From contig LJUP01000036.1 in assembly GCA_001303955.1 (NCBI GenBank), forward strand, positions 1 through 39,889: a stretch of 39,889 bases of DNA, given 5' to 3'. Shown piece after piece: positions 8,954 to 16,900 of this stretch; the stretch's first letter is position 1; every line of letters starts with the position of its first letter. Under the pieces are notes generated by a model, which was not told the origin of the DNA, did not search any database, and was given only the letters and a program-made list of their open reading frames with translations. A program made the translations under genes and the position numbers. Source of the stretch: Bacteroides sp. SM23_62. Its GTDB lineage: Bacteria; Bacteroidota; Bacteroidia; Bacteroidales; SM23-62.

Positions 8954-10078
8954 TTGAAGAGGAAAGCCGTTTCATATATCTTAGGGGGACTCTTATTCCT
9001 GGTTCTGGTATCTGCCAAGACTGTCCGGCAGCCTGAACCCGCCCATGAAAAGGCTGCGACCGAACAACATGATGAACAGGTGGAACATGGCGAGGCAGAG
9101 GAAGAATTTTACCCTCCAGATTTTATCTTCGATCATATTCTTGACGCTTACGAATGGCATATCCTCAGCTATGATGATTTTCACCTGAGCATTCCGCTCC
9201 CGGTCATCATTTACAGTGACAGCAAGGGACTGAATGTTTTTATGTTCAGCCGGTTCCATCACGGGCATGATGATTACAGGGGGTTCAGGTTCGTAAGCCA
9301 AGGAGCACTAAAGGGGAATATCGTTGAGATCATGGAAGATGGCACTACGGCCTTGCCGCGGCTGGATCTGTCAATAACCAAAAATGTACTTGCCATTTTG
9401 ATAAGCCTCATATTGCTGCTGTGGATATTTCTTTCCGTGGCAAAAGCATACAGAAGACATCCGGACAAGGCCCCGGCAGGATTACAGAACCTGCTGGAAC
9501 CGATCATTTTATTTATTCGTGATGACATTGCCAAGCCTTCTATAGGAGAGCACAAGTATGAACGCTTCATGCCCTTCCTGCTGACCATATTCTTTTTCAT
9601 CTGGTTCAATAACATGATGGGGCTGATCCCTATTTTCCCCGGGGGGGCCAATGTCACGGGGAGCATTTCTGTTACCATGCTGCTGGCATTGTTTACCTTC
9701 GTGATCACGACGATCAGCGGGAACCGGAATTACTGGCAGCATATATTCAATATGCCGGGTGTTCCCTGGTGGGTGAAGATTCCGGTTCCACTGATGCCGG
9801 TCATAGAGATCATCGGCATGATAACCAAACCCTTTGTACTGATGGTACGTCTCTTTGCCAATATTGCAGCGGGACATATCATCGTGCTCGGGTTTTTCAG
9901 CCTGATCTTTATTTTCGGACAGATGAGCGTGGGACTTGGACTGGGGGTTTCGGTGGTGAGCCTGGCGTTTACGATTTTCATGACCATGATTGAATTGCTG
10001 GTGGCCCTGATCCAGGCCTATGTATTTACCTTGCTTTCGGCCATTTATTTTGGGATGGCTACGGAAGAACATCATTAA
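8954..10078 (+). CDS. atpB: ATP synthase F0 subunit a, with N-terminal extension
   Basis: The C-terminal two thirds are subunit a: helix IKPxxL-like MITKPFVLMVRLFANIAAGH with the essential arginine R299, followed by the final helix ELLVALIQAYVFTLLSAIYFG. Subunit a provides the two proton half-channels next to the c-ring. The first roughly 130 residues are extra: a signal-peptide-like helix (residues 5-20) and a long His/Glu-rich extracytoplasmic stretch, common in Bacteroidota AtpB. The start appears to be TTG at 8954, since no ATG or GTG precedes the signal-like segment. The 59 nt before it show no clear promoter, so it is probably read from upstream. Confidence 0.93.
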   Translation: MKRKAVSYILGGLLFLVLVSAKTVRQPEPAHEKAATEQHDEQVEHGEAEEEFYPPDFIFDHILDAYEWHILSYDDFHLSIPLPVIIYSDSKGLNVFMFSRFHHGHDDYRGFRFVSQGALKGNIVEIMEDGTTALPRLDLSITKNVLAILISLILLLWIFLSVAKAYRRHPDKAPAGLQNLLEPIILFIRDDIAKPSIGEHKYERFMPFLLTIFFFIWFNNMMGLIPIFPGGANVTGSISVTMLLALFTFVITTISGNRNYWQHIFNMPGVPWWVKIPVPLMPVIEIIGMITKPFVLMVRLFANIAAGHIIVLGFFSLIFIFGQMSVGLGLGVSVVSLAFTIFMTMIELLVALIQAYVFTLLSAIYFGMATEEHH

Positions 10079-10112: not shown

Positions 10113-10361
10113 ATGAACACACTGATGGTTATTTTGGAAGTTGCACTCGGAAACCTGGGTGCAGCCCTGGGTGCAGGAATCGCTGTCATCGGTGCCGGAC
10201 TGGGTATCGGCAGGATCGGTGGTACTGCCATGGAAGCCATTGCCAGACAACCGGAAGCTGCCGGTGACATTCGGTCAAATATGATCGTTTCCGCCGCCCT
10301 GATAGAAGGAGTAGCTTTCTTTGCTATCGTGGTCTGTCTGTTAATCCTTTTTATGGCATAA
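10113..10361 (+). CDS. atpE: ATP synthase F0 subunit c
   Basis: This 82-aa proteolipid is a two-helix hairpin with a glycine-rich first helix (GAALGAGIAVIGAGLGIGRI), a polar loop at ARQPEA (about 44-49), and an ion-binding carboxylate E65 in ALIEGVAFF. The residue after E65 is glycine rather than the Ser/Thr of sodium-binding c subunits, which suggests proton coupling. Many copies form the rotor ring. A strong hairpin follows the stop codon. Confidence 0.97.
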   Translation: MNTLMVILEVALGNLGAALGAGIAVIGAGLGIGRIGGTAMEAIARQPEAAGDIRSNMIVSAALIEGVAFFAIVVCLLILFMA

Positions 10362-10370
10362 AGGGATTTT

Positions 10371-10407
10371 TCCCGAAGGGAGTGGCGATTGGCCTCTCCC
10401 ATCGGGA
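10371..10407 (+). terminator. Strong hairpin between atpE and atpF (partial terminator or mRNA stabiliser)
   Basis: The 37-nt element is a near-perfect inverted repeat: TCCCGA-A-GGGAG-T-GGC, loop GATTG, then GCC-T-CTCCC-A-TCGGGA. That is 14 base pairs broken only by symmetrical A/A and T/T mismatches, followed by the T-rich TTGTTTTG. It begins 9 nt after the atpE stop and ends 27 nt before the atpF start. A leaky terminator or 3'-end stabiliser here would raise atpE output over the downstream subunits, fitting the many c copies per enzyme. The structure is seen; the function is inferred. Confidence 0.6.
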
Positions 10408-10434
10408 TTGTTTTGAAATAAAAAACACAAACAT

Positions 10435-10929
10435 ATGCGACTTGTAACCCCTGATATTGGAACCATTTTCTGGATGCTGCTGATGTTTATCATCGTGCTG
10501 GTAATCCTGAAAAAGTTTGCCTGGAAACCGATCCTGAATGCCCTCAGGAACCGTGAGCAATCCATTGAGGAATCGCTGCGTTCCGCTGACAAGGCAAAAA
10601 AAGAGATGGAAAAACTCCAGGCCGACAATGAAAAGATCATGGCCGAAGCCCGGAAGGTACGAGACAAAATGCTGAAGGAGACCAAAAAATCCAGTGAAAA
10701 CATCCTGGGTGAGGCAAAGAATAAGGCCAGAGAAGAATCAAAAAAGATCATTCAATCTGCAAGGGTGCAAATAGAGAATGAAAAGGATGCTGCCATCGCA
10801 GATATCCGCAACCAGGTGGCGGCCTTATCCGTGGAGATCGCTGAGAAGATCCTGCAGGAGAAACTGAAGGATGATAAAGCCCAGCAGGAGCTGATGGAAA
10901 AGCTTCTGAAAGATGTTAAAATGAACTAG
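10435..10929 (+). CDS. atpF: ATP synthase F0 subunit b
   Basis: One N-terminal membrane helix (about residues 8-27) ends in KKFAWKPILNALRNRE, the usual subunit b boundary. A long charged coiled coil rich in Lys, Glu and Ala (about 35-160) follows. This is the peripheral stalk that holds the alpha/beta hexamer against rotation. The length of 164 aa is normal. It begins after the hairpin and ends 2 nt before atpH. Confidence 0.95.
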   Translation: MRLVTPDIGTIFWMLLMFIIVLVILKKFAWKPILNALRNREQSIEESLRSADKAKKEMEKLQADNEKIMAEARKVRDKMLKETKKSSENILGEAKNKAREESKKIIQSARVQIENEKDAAIADIRNQVAALSVEIAEKILQEKLKDDKAQQELMEKLLKDVKMN

Positions 10930-10931
10930 GG

Positions 10932-11468
10932 ATGAAAGCAGGCAGGATAGCGGTGAGATATGCCAGGGCGCTGTTCCTGAGTGCAGGGGAACAAGGGGTC
11001 CTGGATACTGTGCGGAAAGACATGGAACTGATCCTTGCCACTGTTTCTGATATGGCAGAGGTTATTAGCCTGCTTGAAAGCCCGGTTGTGGAAACCAGGA
11101 AAAAGACAAGTATTCTGGTATCCCTTTTTGAGCATAGGGTAAGTGCCCTGGCCCTGGATTTTATCCGCCTGGTAACCGGCAATAACCGGGAAGAATATTT
11201 TGCCGCCATATGCCGGCACTATATCAAATTATACAAAGAGGAAAAAGGGATAAAGGTGGCCCACATTGAGACTGCAAGGCCCCTTACAGAAGCACTCAGG
11301 CAGGAAATGATTACCATTATAACCAGGGCCTTCAAGGCGGATATTGAATTAGAGGAGGAAGTCAGGAAAGACCTTATAGGGGGATTCTTGCTCCGTGTTG
11401 AAGACAAGCAGCTTGACTCCAGTGTCAAAGGGAAACTGGGAAGGATAAAGAAAGCATTACAGAAATAA
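10932..11468 (+). CDS. atpH: ATP synthase F1 subunit delta
   Basis: The 178-aa protein begins RIAVRYARALF, the OSCP/delta signature, and has the C-terminal pattern RKDLIGGFLLRVEDKQLDSS seen in the family (usually GG.xxxIGDxxxDxS). It caps the alpha/beta hexamer and connects it to subunit b. The start lies 2 nt after atpF. It fits the operon order b-delta-alpha-gamma. Confidence 0.95.
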   Translation: MKAGRIAVRYARALFLSAGEQGVLDTVRKDMELILATVSDMAEVISLLESPVVETRKKTSILVSLFEHRVSALALDFIRLVTGNNREEYFAAICRHYIKLYKEEKGIKVAHIETARPLTEALRQEMITIITRAFKADIELEEEVRKDLIGGFLLRVEDKQLDSSVKGKLGRIKKALQK

Positions 11469-11498
11469 ATTAGCAGAACATATTAAAATTATTAATCA

Positions 11499-13085
11499 AT
11501 GGCTGGAATAAAACCTGCTGAGGTATCTGAAGTACTTAAGAAACAACTCGAGGGAGTTAAAACAACTGAAGAACTGGAAGAAGTAGGTACCGTCCTCCAG
11601 GTCGGAGACGGCATTGCCAGGATATACGGATTGACCAATGTGCAATCAAACGAGCTGATCGAGTTTGAGAATGGTGTCGTCGGAATGGTGCTTAACCTGG
11701 AGGAGGATAATATCGGTGCTGTGCTACTCGGGTCTTCCGAAGAGATCGGGGAAGGCGACCTGGTGAAAAGAACAGGCCGGATCGCCGCCCTTGAAGTCGG
11801 GGAAGGGTTACTTGGAAGGGTGATCAATACCATTGGCGAACCCATTGACGGCAAGGGACCTGTAAAGGGGGAAAAGATAGTGTTGCCGCTGGAAAGAAAA
11901 GCCCCGGGTGTGATATACCGCCAGCCGGTGAATGAACCCCTGCAAACGGGAATCAAACCCATTGATGCAATGATCCCCATAGGAAGGGGACAGCGTGAAT
12001 TGATCATTGGCGACAGGCAGACCGGTAAAACAGCCATTGCCATTGACACGATCATAAACCAGAGGGAGTTTTACGAGAAGGGAGAACCGGTATATTGTAT
12101 CTACGTCGCCATAGGGCAAAAGGGATCTACCGTTGCCAATATCGCTACTACACTGGAGCATTTCAGTGCCATGAACTACACGGTCATCGTATCTGCCACG
12201 GCTTCGGATCCCGCCGCCATGCAGTTTTATGCCCCTTTTGCAGGTTGTACCATCGGAGAGTATTTCAGGGATACAGGAAGGGCTGCCCTTATTATCTATG
12301 ATGATCTTTCAAAACAGGCCGTTTCCTATCGCGAGGTATCCCTGTTGCTGAGAAGACCGCCTGGAAGAGAGGCTTATCCCGGTGATGTTTTCTACCTTCA
12401 CTCCAGGTTGCTGGAACGGGCTGCAAAGATCATAGAGTCTGATGAGATTGCCAGCCAGATGAACGATCTTCCTGAAGTGCTGAAACCTGTCGTCAGGGGG
12501 GGCGGATCCCTGACAGCCTTGCCCATTATCGAGACACAGGCAGGTGATGTTTCGGCCTATATACCGACCAATGTAATTTCCATTACAGACGGACAGATCT
12601 TTCTGGAGTCAAACCTCTTTAATGCGGGAGTACGACCGGCCATCAATGTGGGGATCTCTGTATCCAGGGTGGGTGGCAAAGCCCAGATCAAGGCGATGAA
12701 ATCTGTGGCCGGCACCCTGAAACTCGACCAGGCCTACTACAGGGAACTGGAAGCCTTTGCCAAATTTGGATCTGACCTTGATAAAGCTACCCTGGCAACA
12801 CTGGATAAGGGAGCCAAGAATGTGGAGATCCTGAAACAGGGACAGTACTCCCCGATGTCGGTTGAAAAACAGATAGCCATTATCTTTGTTGGTACGCATG
12901 GCTTACTGGTGAATGTGCCGGTAACCAGGGTAAAGGAATTTGAAGAGGAATTTCTTGATTTCCTGGAGTTTAAGCACAAAGATTTAATGGGAGAACTGAG
13001 AAAGGGTATCCTGACGGACAAAGAAGAAAAGGTGCTTGAAAAAGTGGCCAGAGAGATCGCATCCAGATACGAGGAGACCGCTTAA
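11499..13085 (+). CDS. atpA: ATP synthase F1 subunit alpha
   Basis: The 528-aa protein has the N-terminal beta-barrel ([14 protein letters not shown]), a P-loop GDRQTGKT at residues 171-178 with K177, and the alpha-specific segments [15 protein letters not shown] and [17 protein letters not shown]. Alpha subunits bind nucleotide at the non-catalytic sites and alternate with beta. A 30-nt AT-rich gap precedes it. The stop is directly followed by the atpG ATG. Confidence 0.98.
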
Positions 13086-13967
13086 ATGGCAAACCTTAAA
13101 GAAATACGTAATCGCATTGCCTCGGTAACTTCTACCAGGAAGATCACCAGTGCCATGAAAATGGTATCGGCAGCAAAATTACGAAAGGCACAGGAAGCCA
13201 TAATACGGATAAGGCCCTATGCTGACCGACTGCATACCATCCTTACCAACCTGAGTGATTCAATCAGGGGAGATGAAGATAATCCATACTCAGTTGAACG
13301 GGATCTGGAGAAAATAATGATCATTGTGATTGCATCAAACCGTGGACTTTGCGGTGCTTTTAATTCATTGGTCATAAAACGTGCCATGCAGGTGGCGCAT
13401 GAGGACTACCCCAACCTGATGCGGCAAAAAAAAGTGGATTTTTACACCATTGGCAAAAGAGGGTCCGACTTTTTCCAGAACAAAAAATACCCGCTGGCCG
13501 GAGTGAAGAATGAGCTTTTTGATGACCTTACATTTGACAATGTAATGCCGGTTGCCGGAGAAATCATGGATCATTTTATTTCCGGGGAGTATGACCGGGT
13601 GATGCTGGTCTATAACCAGTTTAAGAATGCGGCTGTACAGATCCTTACCACGGAGCAATTCCTGCCGGTGCTGATACCGGAAAAAACGGACGAGGACAGC
13701 ATCATTGCTGATTATATATACGAACCTTCCAAAGAATACATTGTCAGGGAACTCATCCCAAGATCCTTAAAGATCCAGTTTTACAAGGCTTTGCTTGATT
13801 CAAATGCGGCTGAACACGGGGCCAGGATGACGGCCATGCATATGGCCACAGACAATGCCACAGAATTGCTTCGGGAATTAAACCTGAATTACAACAAGGC
13901 TCGCCAGGCAGCCATTACCAGCGAACTCCTGGAAATCGTATCGGGTGCGGAAGCCTTGAAAGGCTGA
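13086..13967 (+). CDS. atpG: ATP synthase F1 subunit gamma
   Basis: The 293-aa rotor shaft begins MANLKEIRNRIASVTSTRKI, with TSAMKMVSAAKLRKAQ in the N-terminal helix. It ends with a C-terminal helix RMTAMHMATDNA...LNLNYNKARQAAITSELLEIVSGAEAL, both gamma signatures. The ATG touches the atpA stop with no gap. It is the last gene of this ATP synthase block; beta and epsilon lie 24 kb away on the opposite strand. Only 10 nt separate its stop from that of carB, and I see no separate terminator hairpin there. Confidence 0.97.
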   Translation: MANLKEIRNRIASVTSTRKITSAMKMVSAAKLRKAQEAIIRIRPYADRLHTILTNLSDSIRGDEDNPYSVERDLEKIMIIVIASNRGLCGAFNSLVIKRAMQVAHEDYPNLMRQKKVDFYTIGKRGSDFFQNKKYPLAGVKNELFDDLTFDNVMPVAGEIMDHFISGEYDRVMLVYNQFKNAAVQILTTEQFLPVLIPEKTDEDSIIADYIYEPSKEYIVRELIPRSLKIQFYKALLDSNAAEHGARMTAMHMATDNATELLRELNLNYNKARQAAITSELLEIVSGAEALKG

Positions 13968-13977
13968 TATTGGCCGC

Positions 13978-16900
13978 CTAATACTCCGCCCAGTGCTTGA
14001 TCGCGATCTCCTCTTCTTTTATTTTGCAGAAGGCTATGATAAAAGCACTGGCCAGCCTGGCATTGGTGATCAGCGGGATATTGTAATCGACCGCGTTACG
14101 GCGGATGGAATAGTCATTGCTTAGTTCATTTGTGGTAAGATCCTTGGGGATATTGATGACCAGGTCGATCATCTTGTTCTGAAGGTAGTCCAGGGTATTG
14201 GGCTTCTTATCCTCATCCGGCCAGTAAAGCACTGTTGATTCAATGTTGTTGAGTCTTAGAAAATCAGCCGTGCCCTTGGTGGCAAAAAGGTTGTACCCTT
14301 TTTCGGCCAGCATGCGGCAGCTGTTGATCAGTTCTACCTTGGAGCGCATGGGACCGGTAGACAGGAGGATGTTTTTTTCGGGGATGGTATACCCGACCGA
14401 AAGCATCGATTTCAGGATGGCTTCGTAAAAATTCTCTCCGATGCAGCCGACCTCCCCTGTAGAAGACATGTCAACACCCAGCACAGGGTCGGCTTTTTTC
14501 AGGCGGGAGAAGGAGAACTGCGGGGCCTTGATCCCGATATAATCCAGGTCAAATATGGATTTGTCCGGTTTATCATAAGGCAGATCAAGAATGACCTTGG
14601 TGGCTATATCGATGAAATTGGATTTCAGGACCTTTGATACGAAAGGCATACTGCGCGAAGCCCGCAGGTTACATTCAATGACCTTGATATCATTGTCCTT
14701 GGCAAGGAACTGCATGTTAAAGGGACCGGTGATATCCAGCGCCCTGGCAATGTCACGCGATATTCTCTTGATCCTGCGTACCGTTTCAAAATAAATCTTC
14801 TGTGGAGGAAAAACCATGGTGGCATCGCCGGAATGCACTCCTGCAAACTCCACGTGTTCACACAGGGCATAGACCACAAGCTCACCATTTTTTGCCACGG
14901 CATCGATCTCGATCTCCTTGGCCTGCTCGATAAACTCGGAAACCACGACAGGATACTGCTTGGATACCTTGGCTGCCAGGTTCAGGAAGTGTTCCAGCTC
15001 ATCCTTGTTGGATACAACATTCATGGCTGCCCCTGAAAGGACATAGGAGGGACGGATCAATACCGGGAATCCGACCAGGTCAATGAATTCATAAATGTCT
15101 TCAATGCTCGTCAGTTCCTTCCATCTGGGCTGGTCAATATGCAGCTTGTCCAGCATCAGGGAAAACTTATGTCTGTTCTCGGCTTTATCGATGGATACAG
15201 GAGATGTGCCAAGGATGCTGACCTGCTGGCCGTGCAGCCGCATGGCCAGGTTATTGGGGATCTGTCCCCCCATGGAAACAACCACCCCTTTGGGTGCTTC
15301 CAGCTCAACCACATCCATGACACGCTCGAAGGAAAGCTCATCAAAATACAGGCGTTCACAGACATCATAATCAGTACTTACAGTCTCTGGGTTATAATTG
15401 ATCATGATGGACCGGTATCCCTGTTCATTCAGGGTATAAATTGTGTTCACACTGCACCAGTCGAACTCCACGCTGCTCCCGATCCGGTAAGCCCCTGAGC
15501 CCAGGACAATGACGGATTTGCCATCCTTTGCAAAATCTATATCATGCTCCTCCCCGCTGTAGGACAGGTACAGGTAATTGGTTTGGGCCGGATATTCTGC
15601 AGCCAGTGTATCAATCTGTTTGACAACGGGAAGGATATTCCGTGCCTTGCGGTGGGACCTGACCTCAAGCATTTTTTCCTGGATGATCCCGGCATCCGGG
15701 TTCATGACATGCCTGGCCACCTGGAAATCTGAAAAACCAAGGATCTTGGCCTTGCGCAGATGTTCGTCCGGGAGACTATCAAGGGATTTATACTGCTCAA
15801 GCAGGTTTTTATGGTCAAAAATATTTTTCAGTTTTACCAGGAACCATTTATCGATCTTTGTCAATTCAAAAATCTGGTCCACCGTAAATCCCTTCTCAAA
15901 GGCATCAGCGATCACAAAGATCCGCATATCGGTAGGCTGGGTCAGGTCACGTTCAATTTCGTCGAATTCCAGGTCCCGGTTCCCGGTGAAACCGTGCATG
16001 CCCTGCCCGATCATGCGGATTCCTTTCTGGATGGCCTCCTCGAAGGTCCGTCCGATCGACATCACTTCCCCGACACTTTTCATCGAACTGTCGATCAGTT
16101 TACTGACACCAATAAACTTATTCAGGTCCCAGCGCGGGATCTTGCATACAATATAGTCAAGCGCCGGTTCAAAAAAGGCAGAAGTGGTTTTGGTAATTGA
16201 ATTCTTCAGTTCATGAAGTCCGTATCCGAGTCCCAGTTTAGCCGCCACAAAAGCCAGCGGATAACCGGTAGCCTTGGATGCAAGGGCACTGGATCTTGAC
16301 AGGCGGGCATTTACCTCAATCACCCGGTAATCTTCTGAATTCGGATCCAGGGTGTACTGGATATTGCATTCACCCACAATGCCAATATGACGGATCACAT
16401 CAATGGACAGGCGCCTTAGTTTATGGTATTCGCTGTTGGTTAAGGTCTGCGAAGGAGCAACAACAATGCTTTCACCGGTATGTATACCCAGGGGATCGAA
16501 ATTCTCCATGTTACACACCGTGATGCAATTGTTATAACAGTCCCTTACCACTTCATATTCAATCTCCTTCCATCCTTTCAGTGATTCTTCGATGAGGATC
16601 TGCGGGGAATATGACAGGGCTTTGGAAGCCAGTATTACCAGTTCATCCTCGTTCGCACAAAACCCGCTCCCCTGTCCCCCAAGCGTAAATGCTGCCCGGA
16701 TAATGATGGGATAGCCCAGTCTGGCTGCTGCAGCTTTTGCTGCTTCGATGGATTCCACGGCCTGGCTGTGAGGGGTCTTGACATCGATTTCCTTTAGCTT
16801 GTTTACAAAATGCTCCCTGTCTTCCGTATCAATGATGGCCTGGATGGGTGTCCCAAGCACCTTCACATTGTATTTGTCAAGTACCTTTTGCCTGTAAAGT

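Follow-up and report, generated by a model that had tools for sequence, protein, structure and literature searches.

Subunit c of the F-ATPase is needed in at least 10 copies per other subunit, an excess that is mostly put down to translation signals. In the Rhodobacter puf operon, an intercistronic hairpin is found where the operon's upstream part is needed in excess, a likeness to the element that we describe here downstream of atpE, the gene for subunit c; we know of no sequence-specific loop in the puf hairpin, and its genes and lineage are unrelated to ours. In chloroplasts, the PPR10 site adjoins atpH (subunit c), and PPR proteins bind single-stranded sequence. Differential mRNA decay has been described for the puf operon (PMC5927463, PMC3997798) and, in E. 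coli, it sets operon stoichiometry, with stabilisation of the segment that encodes the ring-forming TatA (PMC5927463). The decay-protecting structures of E. coli (e.g. in tatABC) resemble the atpE element in that they mark the border between the segment of a many-copy ring subunit and downstream genes and are conserved in relatives; they generally lie inside coding regions, however, and no fixed loop is reported in the accessible parts of that paper (PMC5927463), whereas the atpE element occupies a spacer, carries a conserved pentaloop and is known from sequence. The E. coli study lists among its references a 1990 review of how the atp operon of that species is controlled post-transcriptionally. 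In chloroplasts, maintenance of the ATP synthase messages depends on sequence-specific proteins that serve as exonuclease barriers (PMC6474325, PMC5897788), and the PPR10 and BFA2 sites, at which a specific factor in an atp intergenic region forms such a barrier, are close in kind to what we propose below, although they belong to a plant system, while the bacterial element is a covarying stem with a pentaloop and a putative partner (PMC5897788, PMC6474325). A further likeness is provided by the L17 downstream element (RF01708), a structured RNA that is conserved behind one particular gene and has a proposed cis action, albeit for another gene and in other taxa (PMC2864571). While intercistronic stabilising hairpins are already known, a class-spread atpE element with a fixed pentaloop appears to be new: the accessible main-text parts of the literature covered, including the structured-RNA surveys PMC2864571 and PMC8040213 and the Flavobacterium transcriptome map PMC9723704 (supplements being outside this scope), contain no mention of it.

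The element is an RNA structure under sense-strand selection with a sequence-conserved loop, placed after atpE. In the window, i.e. the whole 39,889-nt stretch of DNA that was analysed, the atp genes lie on the + strand, with atpB (F-ATPase subunit a; 8954-10078, start codon provisional; PF00119 ATP-synt_A, E 4.4e-58) as the upstream operon gene, followed by atpE (subunit c, 82 aa; 10113-10361; PF00137 ATP-synt_C, E 2.1e-16), a 73-nt spacer that holds the hairpin (10362-10434, + strand), atpF (subunit b, 164 aa; 10435-10929; PF00430 ATP-synt_B, E 3.1e-31) and the co-oriented atpH, atpA and atpG (10932-13967; PF00213, OSCP, delta; PF00006, ATP-synt_ab, alpha; PF00231, ATP-synt, gamma). The hairpin (10371-10407, + strand), supported by sequence, fold and the covariance model R1 introduced below, is set off by 9 nt from the atpE stop codon (10359-10361) and by 27 nt from the atpF ATG (10435). 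It reads TCCCGAAGGGAGTGGC-GATTG-GCCTCTCCCATCGGGA, and of its 16 stem positions, 14 are Watson-Crick pairs, the other two being an A.A and a T.T as symmetrical 1x1 mismatches. The preliminary description had placed a hairpin of 14 base pairs with symmetrical mismatches at these very coordinates after the c-subunit gene, and the sequence check reproduced it exactly. The minimum free energy of the hairpin is -27.5 kcal/mol (z = -3.68; 1/200 shuffles as good), and the whole atpE-atpF spacer departs even further from its shuffles (z = -5.02; 0/200 as good). The T-rich run that had also been pointed out there is TTGTTTTG, which in the window can pair with the A-run behind it. The most telling feature of the window hairpin is its GATTG pentaloop (10387-10391, + strand) with the closing pair C10386-G10392, which belongs to the GRUUG loops common in the class. 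Overall, the hairpin is real and more than a terminator-like palindrome. Both of its arms are themselves small palindromes, TCCC-GAA-GGGA (10371-10381) and TCCC-ATC-GGGA (10397-10407), so that the long hairpin might face competition from two short ones in the window. Neither the window nor 20 related loci contained a match to any Rfam 15 family at its gathering score, and the three matches below that score around the hairpin site were all implausible; the atpE hairpin hence adds a candidate structured RNA family without an Rfam 15 match.

We found the stem to be maintained by covariation. In the set for the order, AtpE was detected in 51 of 60 related genomes and the post-atpE spacer was examined in 50 (G034 omitted), most of which, judged by eye and then by script, showed the same apex on a hairpin with an unrelated stem sequence. 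In a gap-free alignment of 25 order-level hairpins, 24 of them distinct (A1), double-sided changes occurred in 16/16 pairs, amounting to 154 such cells (mean after shuffling, 57), and pairing held in 81% of cells versus 34-46% in slid registers. Upon extending the comparison to 98 unique members from the class, 82% of cells were paired, compared with 48% after shuffling and 37-48% in slid registers, and double-sided changes numbered 651 versus 238 in shuffled data. As these 98 members were picked by their loop pattern, loop conservation was judged from the spacer census and hairpin counts instead. Compensatory changes thus keep the helix, as in conserved structured cis-RNA motifs. The preliminary description had named absent stem conservation in related genomes, together with flat coverage across atpE-atpF, as evidence against its proposal; on the contrary, the stem covaries across both order and class.

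The substitutions also distinguish the two strands. Within pairs 1-12 of the 98 members, G-U combinations outnumbered A-C ones by 69 to 32 (binomial p = 0.0003), and since an A-C is a G-U on the other strand, this excess indicates that the atp-sense RNA is under selection; at the unpaired positions 20-26 of the same members, the excess was reversed (G-U 34, A-C 64). This bias bears on the notion of a DNA-level or mobile element (a cruciform, a REP-like repeat or an insertion target) or of a chance palindrome, which the palindromic shape might evoke but which we regard as extremely improbable, given that the G-U excess marks the sense RNA, that relatives share the place yet not the stem sequence, and that the hairpin DNA is single-copy, a search of the 5.78-Mb draft genome returning no second copy and only matches of 14-25 nt. 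A REP-like or mobile repeat, of which several copies are expected, was consequently rejected for the window DNA. As for copies of the motif, some genomes hold further weak model matches, part of which were inspected.

Among 102 members, pairing stayed at 49% or above through position 17 and amounted to 35-44% beyond, the stem started a median of 14.5 nt past the atpE stop codon, and a median of 36.5 nt separated its end from atpF (10th percentile 24, 90th percentile 71). An RNase III-type processing site, at which a double-strand-specific endonuclease would read stem and loop and cut between atpE and atpF, with the fixed length of ~17 bp and the loop positioning the cut, would fit the drop of pairing to background past ~17 positions, and a conserved terminal loop can indeed act as a nuclease ruler, as it does for yeast Rnt1p with AGNN tetraloops. 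Many members, the window hairpin included, contain stem mismatches, however, and to our knowledge bacterial RNase III does not read loop sequence, and we consider such a site unlikely. Translational control or feedback, in which a protein (a subunit, an assembly factor or a ribosomal protein) would bind the loop and repress or couple atpF translation, strikes us as improbable too: the element is near atpF, and a precedent exists in the L17 downstream element, a structured 3' element through which feedback is proposed to run (PMC2864571), but in most members a good distance remains between the end of the stem and the atpF start, as the 10th percentile above shows, and mimicry of rRNA was rejected because a GNUUG apex with at least 5 contiguous pairs was absent from six rRNA loci (one 16S partial) of three class genomes.

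We observed no clear U-tract directly after the hairpin, as an intrinsic (Rho-independent) terminator with its GC-rich hairpin would have it. The stretch from stem to atpF is 76% A+T (101 members), and T residues are hardly enriched at the relevant place, the 10-nt stretch behind the stem having 3.46 of them, compared with 3.12 per 10 nt across the remaining spacer; TTTT occurred near the stem base in 35/102 members, and a terminator scan of the window did not list the hairpin site. The leaky terminator put forward in the preliminary description is not supported by these data. Partial intrinsic termination, or pausing of RNA polymerase, with reduced transcription from atpF onwards, would be consistent with the stability of the hairpin, with the TTTT beside about a third of the stems and with the unequal expression set by internal termination in archaeal operons (PMC10450193), yet the ATP synthase operon of the archaeon in that study is without an internal termination site, and the slight T enrichment, the negative scan and the conserved loop, which termination leaves unexplained, make this quite an unlikely account. 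The other function proposed in the preliminary description, a 3' stabiliser, fared better, as the conserved placement right after the gene for the many-copy subunit fits it, while the conserved loop is not something that it predicts.

The loop carries the sequence conservation of the element. In the class spacer sets, 101 NNUUG loops (a few near-duplicate rows among them) comprised GGUUG in 71 cases, GAUUG in 26 and others in 4, with G at position 1 in 99, a purine at position 2 in 98, and C-G (93) or G-C (8) as the closing pair. Class spacers contained 108 strong hairpins, of which 85 had pentaloops (79 with a final G) and 70 had NNUUG, whereas 138 equally strong hairpins in a clean control included 18 pentaloops and 0 NNUUG on either strand. 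This control consisted of 108 loci plus the window (347,753 bases) with 320 nt from the atpE stop masked; 30/138 loci had been dropped because their spacer could not be located or measured <40 nt, and the window stood in for one locus (L009). An earlier control with 28 NNUUG hairpins was left unused, as it contained model-fetched loci and mis-cut atpE spacers; all 28 were at atpE except those of L104/L194 (one site), L105 and L108. Sequence conservation is thus confined to specific unpaired positions, the GRUUG loop, as is typical of a cis-RNA motif, and it points to recognition by a partner, since neither a terminator nor a 3' stabiliser predicts a fixed loop.

Such a partner might be RNA, in which case the loop would form a pseudoknot or kissing loop with a small RNA or with another part of the atp mRNA. 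Exposed 5-nt loops of fixed sequence commonly engage in this kind of pairing, and CAACC was found within 240 nt upstream in 26/42 GGTTG loci, where it possibly derives from the RQP codons of atpE. Among GATTG loci, by contrast, the matching CAATC occurred upstream in 2/15 and CAACC in 9/15, and since loop and complement fail to covary, a pseudoknot with the flanking atp mRNA was rejected; we deem loop pairing as a whole very unlikely.

The loop is variable in some branches. In Cytophagales, GUUAG or GCUAG loops can cap the atpE hairpin (L290, L294, L307, L308, L312 and L263), GNUAG being present in 4/7 of the Algoriphagus, Belliella and Marinoscillum loci, with other loops in the Algoriphagus loci L279, L288 and L313; GUUAG/GCUAG represents a lineage-specific loop variant that retains the length and the outer G residues. 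In other class lineages, including the genome labelled Chryseobacterium gleum, the hairpin is kept with a different loop (48 rows), indicating that the loop is not indispensable. Stable post-atpE hairpins with tetraloops (CUCG, UUUG, UGUC and UUCC) were seen in L121, L129, L253, L316 and L322.

We quantified the occurrence of the element at increasing phylogenetic depth. In the order, RNAfold placed NNUUG pentaloops on stems with 5 or more pairs in 31/50 spacers and NNUAG in one more; spacers of at least 45 nt had NNUUG in 31/39 cases and shorter ones in 0/11, and the 19/50 without it include short-spacer lineages. A few order genomes have different-loop hairpins (e.g. G049, G007, G008 and, of the same family, L014). 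With one genome per family, NNUUG occurred in 24/45 families of the class, or in 24/39 with spacers of at least 45 nt. It was further found in 9/16 additional class genomes not chosen one per family (NNUAG in 1), in 12/29 class genomes nearest by AtpE, and in 25/80 named genomes (NNUAG in 9), the named set including three contigs labelled as other phyla and four spacer pairs being identical between sets. Spacers were cut via an automatic search for the atpF start that failed or went wrong at some loci (e.g. L173, L301, L302 and L324), and some elements are therefore uncounted. In the other classes of the phylum, NNUUG was found in 0/24 families and in 0/19 with long spacers, which for long spacers differs from the 24/39 of the class at Fisher p = 2e-6; near cases in these classes were a GGTTGA loop (L226) and a GTTG loop (L214), with weak pairings in L220, L221 and L231 picked up by a less stringent script. 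Carriers of GNUUG include Draconibacterium orientale, Rufibacter hautae, a Sunxiuqinia, and a Salinivirgaceae, a Saprospiraceae and a Flavobacteriales genome, while the spacers of ten named Bacteroides and Muribaculaceae, short or long alike, had no such hairpin. One genome (G299) has two atpE-atpF loci (L195 = G299:C9 and L192 = G299:C6), both with a GATTG-loop hairpin.

A covariance model (R1), built from A1 and thus including the window site among its 25 training rows, was used to examine how specific the element is for its place. In the window, the hairpin scored 30 bits (E 3e-06), the next best site scoring 11.3 bits. Across the 60 relatives, 20 of the 22 matches at E < 0.003 lay directly after atpE, the two others being at G039:C81 and G030:C21; four of the 20 came from genomes that had not contributed to training (G056, G032, G013 and G042), and the likewise untrained G020 was matched at atpE with E = 0.37. 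In 92 of 295 class genomes, a match at E <= 0.1 was found, and whole-genome counts with R1 are lower bounds, because the first filter of the search missed the window's own site. Among the best 30 class matches, all of them outside the order, 27 fell 11-40 nt past the end of the AtpE match (18 nt in L113), a consistent position relative to the gene as seen for cis-RNA motifs; the exceptions were the terminator-like L104, flanked by other genes, and two loci of family f65 (L105 and L108). Upon reading the off-atpE matches (8 + 15 + 3 loci), four turned out to be atpE loci (G263:C86, G299:C9, G326:C35 and G205:C1), and most others were inside genes or terminator-like by eye, with a few unclassified. 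Family f65 has strong hairpins of the C(GGTTG)G type at sites other than atpE, in or beside ORFs in L105 and adjoining convergent ORFs in L108, weaker off-atpE matches occur in 5/10 genomes, and the element is absent from the one atpE spacer examined (L155). Overall, the element is almost exclusively at the post-atpE site among the strong model matches examined.

The hairpin lies between a gene whose product is needed in excess and the later genes of the operon, the position of decay-protecting intercistronic hairpins. We tentatively favour the reading that it is a cis-acting element of the atp-operon mRNA, widespread in the class, that may well work as a loop-bound barrier favouring the atpB-atpE message. 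The element would comprise a stem of up to ~17 bp and the GRUUG pentaloop just past the atpE stop codon, and a trans-acting factor, most likely a protein, would recognise the pentaloop together with the upper stem. The message would be cut in the A/T-rich stretch ahead of atpF, the bound hairpin would then block 3'-to-5' exonucleases, and the atpB-atpE segment would outlive the atpF-H-A-G segment, providing the extra subunit c for the c-ring. Two points weigh against this barrier reading: many genomes with the same need for surplus subunit c do not have the element, and the loop would not have to be fixed for exonucleases to be blocked passively. With somewhat greater reserve, we suggest that these loci could form a class-wide RNA-protein system, in which an RNA-binding factor reads the post-atpE GNUUG (GNUAG as the variant in the Cytophagales branch) and thereby fixes the surplus of subunit c or allows it to be adjusted.

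With regard to the identity of such a factor, an RRM protein as a universal partner was rejected, as seven element-bearing genomes were without an RRM_1 match (G011, G015, G020, G036, G050, G054 and G058), five of them at least 96% complete. RbpB of Bacteroides thetaiotaomicron was rejected as well, since it prefers single-stranded regions and no atp target is mentioned in the accessible parts of its description (PMC11697453). The pentaloop itself can be used as a bait for finding candidate RNA-binding factors, and the hairpin between atpE and atpF, fixed in its loop and retained across many families of the class, is a concrete candidate for the origin of the c-subunit excess that lends itself to testing.

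The surroundings of the operon in the window show some further features. Directly upstream of the atp genes lies a bactofilin gene (PF04519; 7902-8315), the frame of which overlaps that of an ATPase_gene1 (PF09527; 8239-8499, start provisional). At the other end, atpG is the last atp gene, and 10 nt separate its end from that of a convergent 1072-aa ORF (13967-13978), by reading of its translation a putative carbamoyl phosphate synthase-like protein, a gap that leaves little room for a usual terminator.
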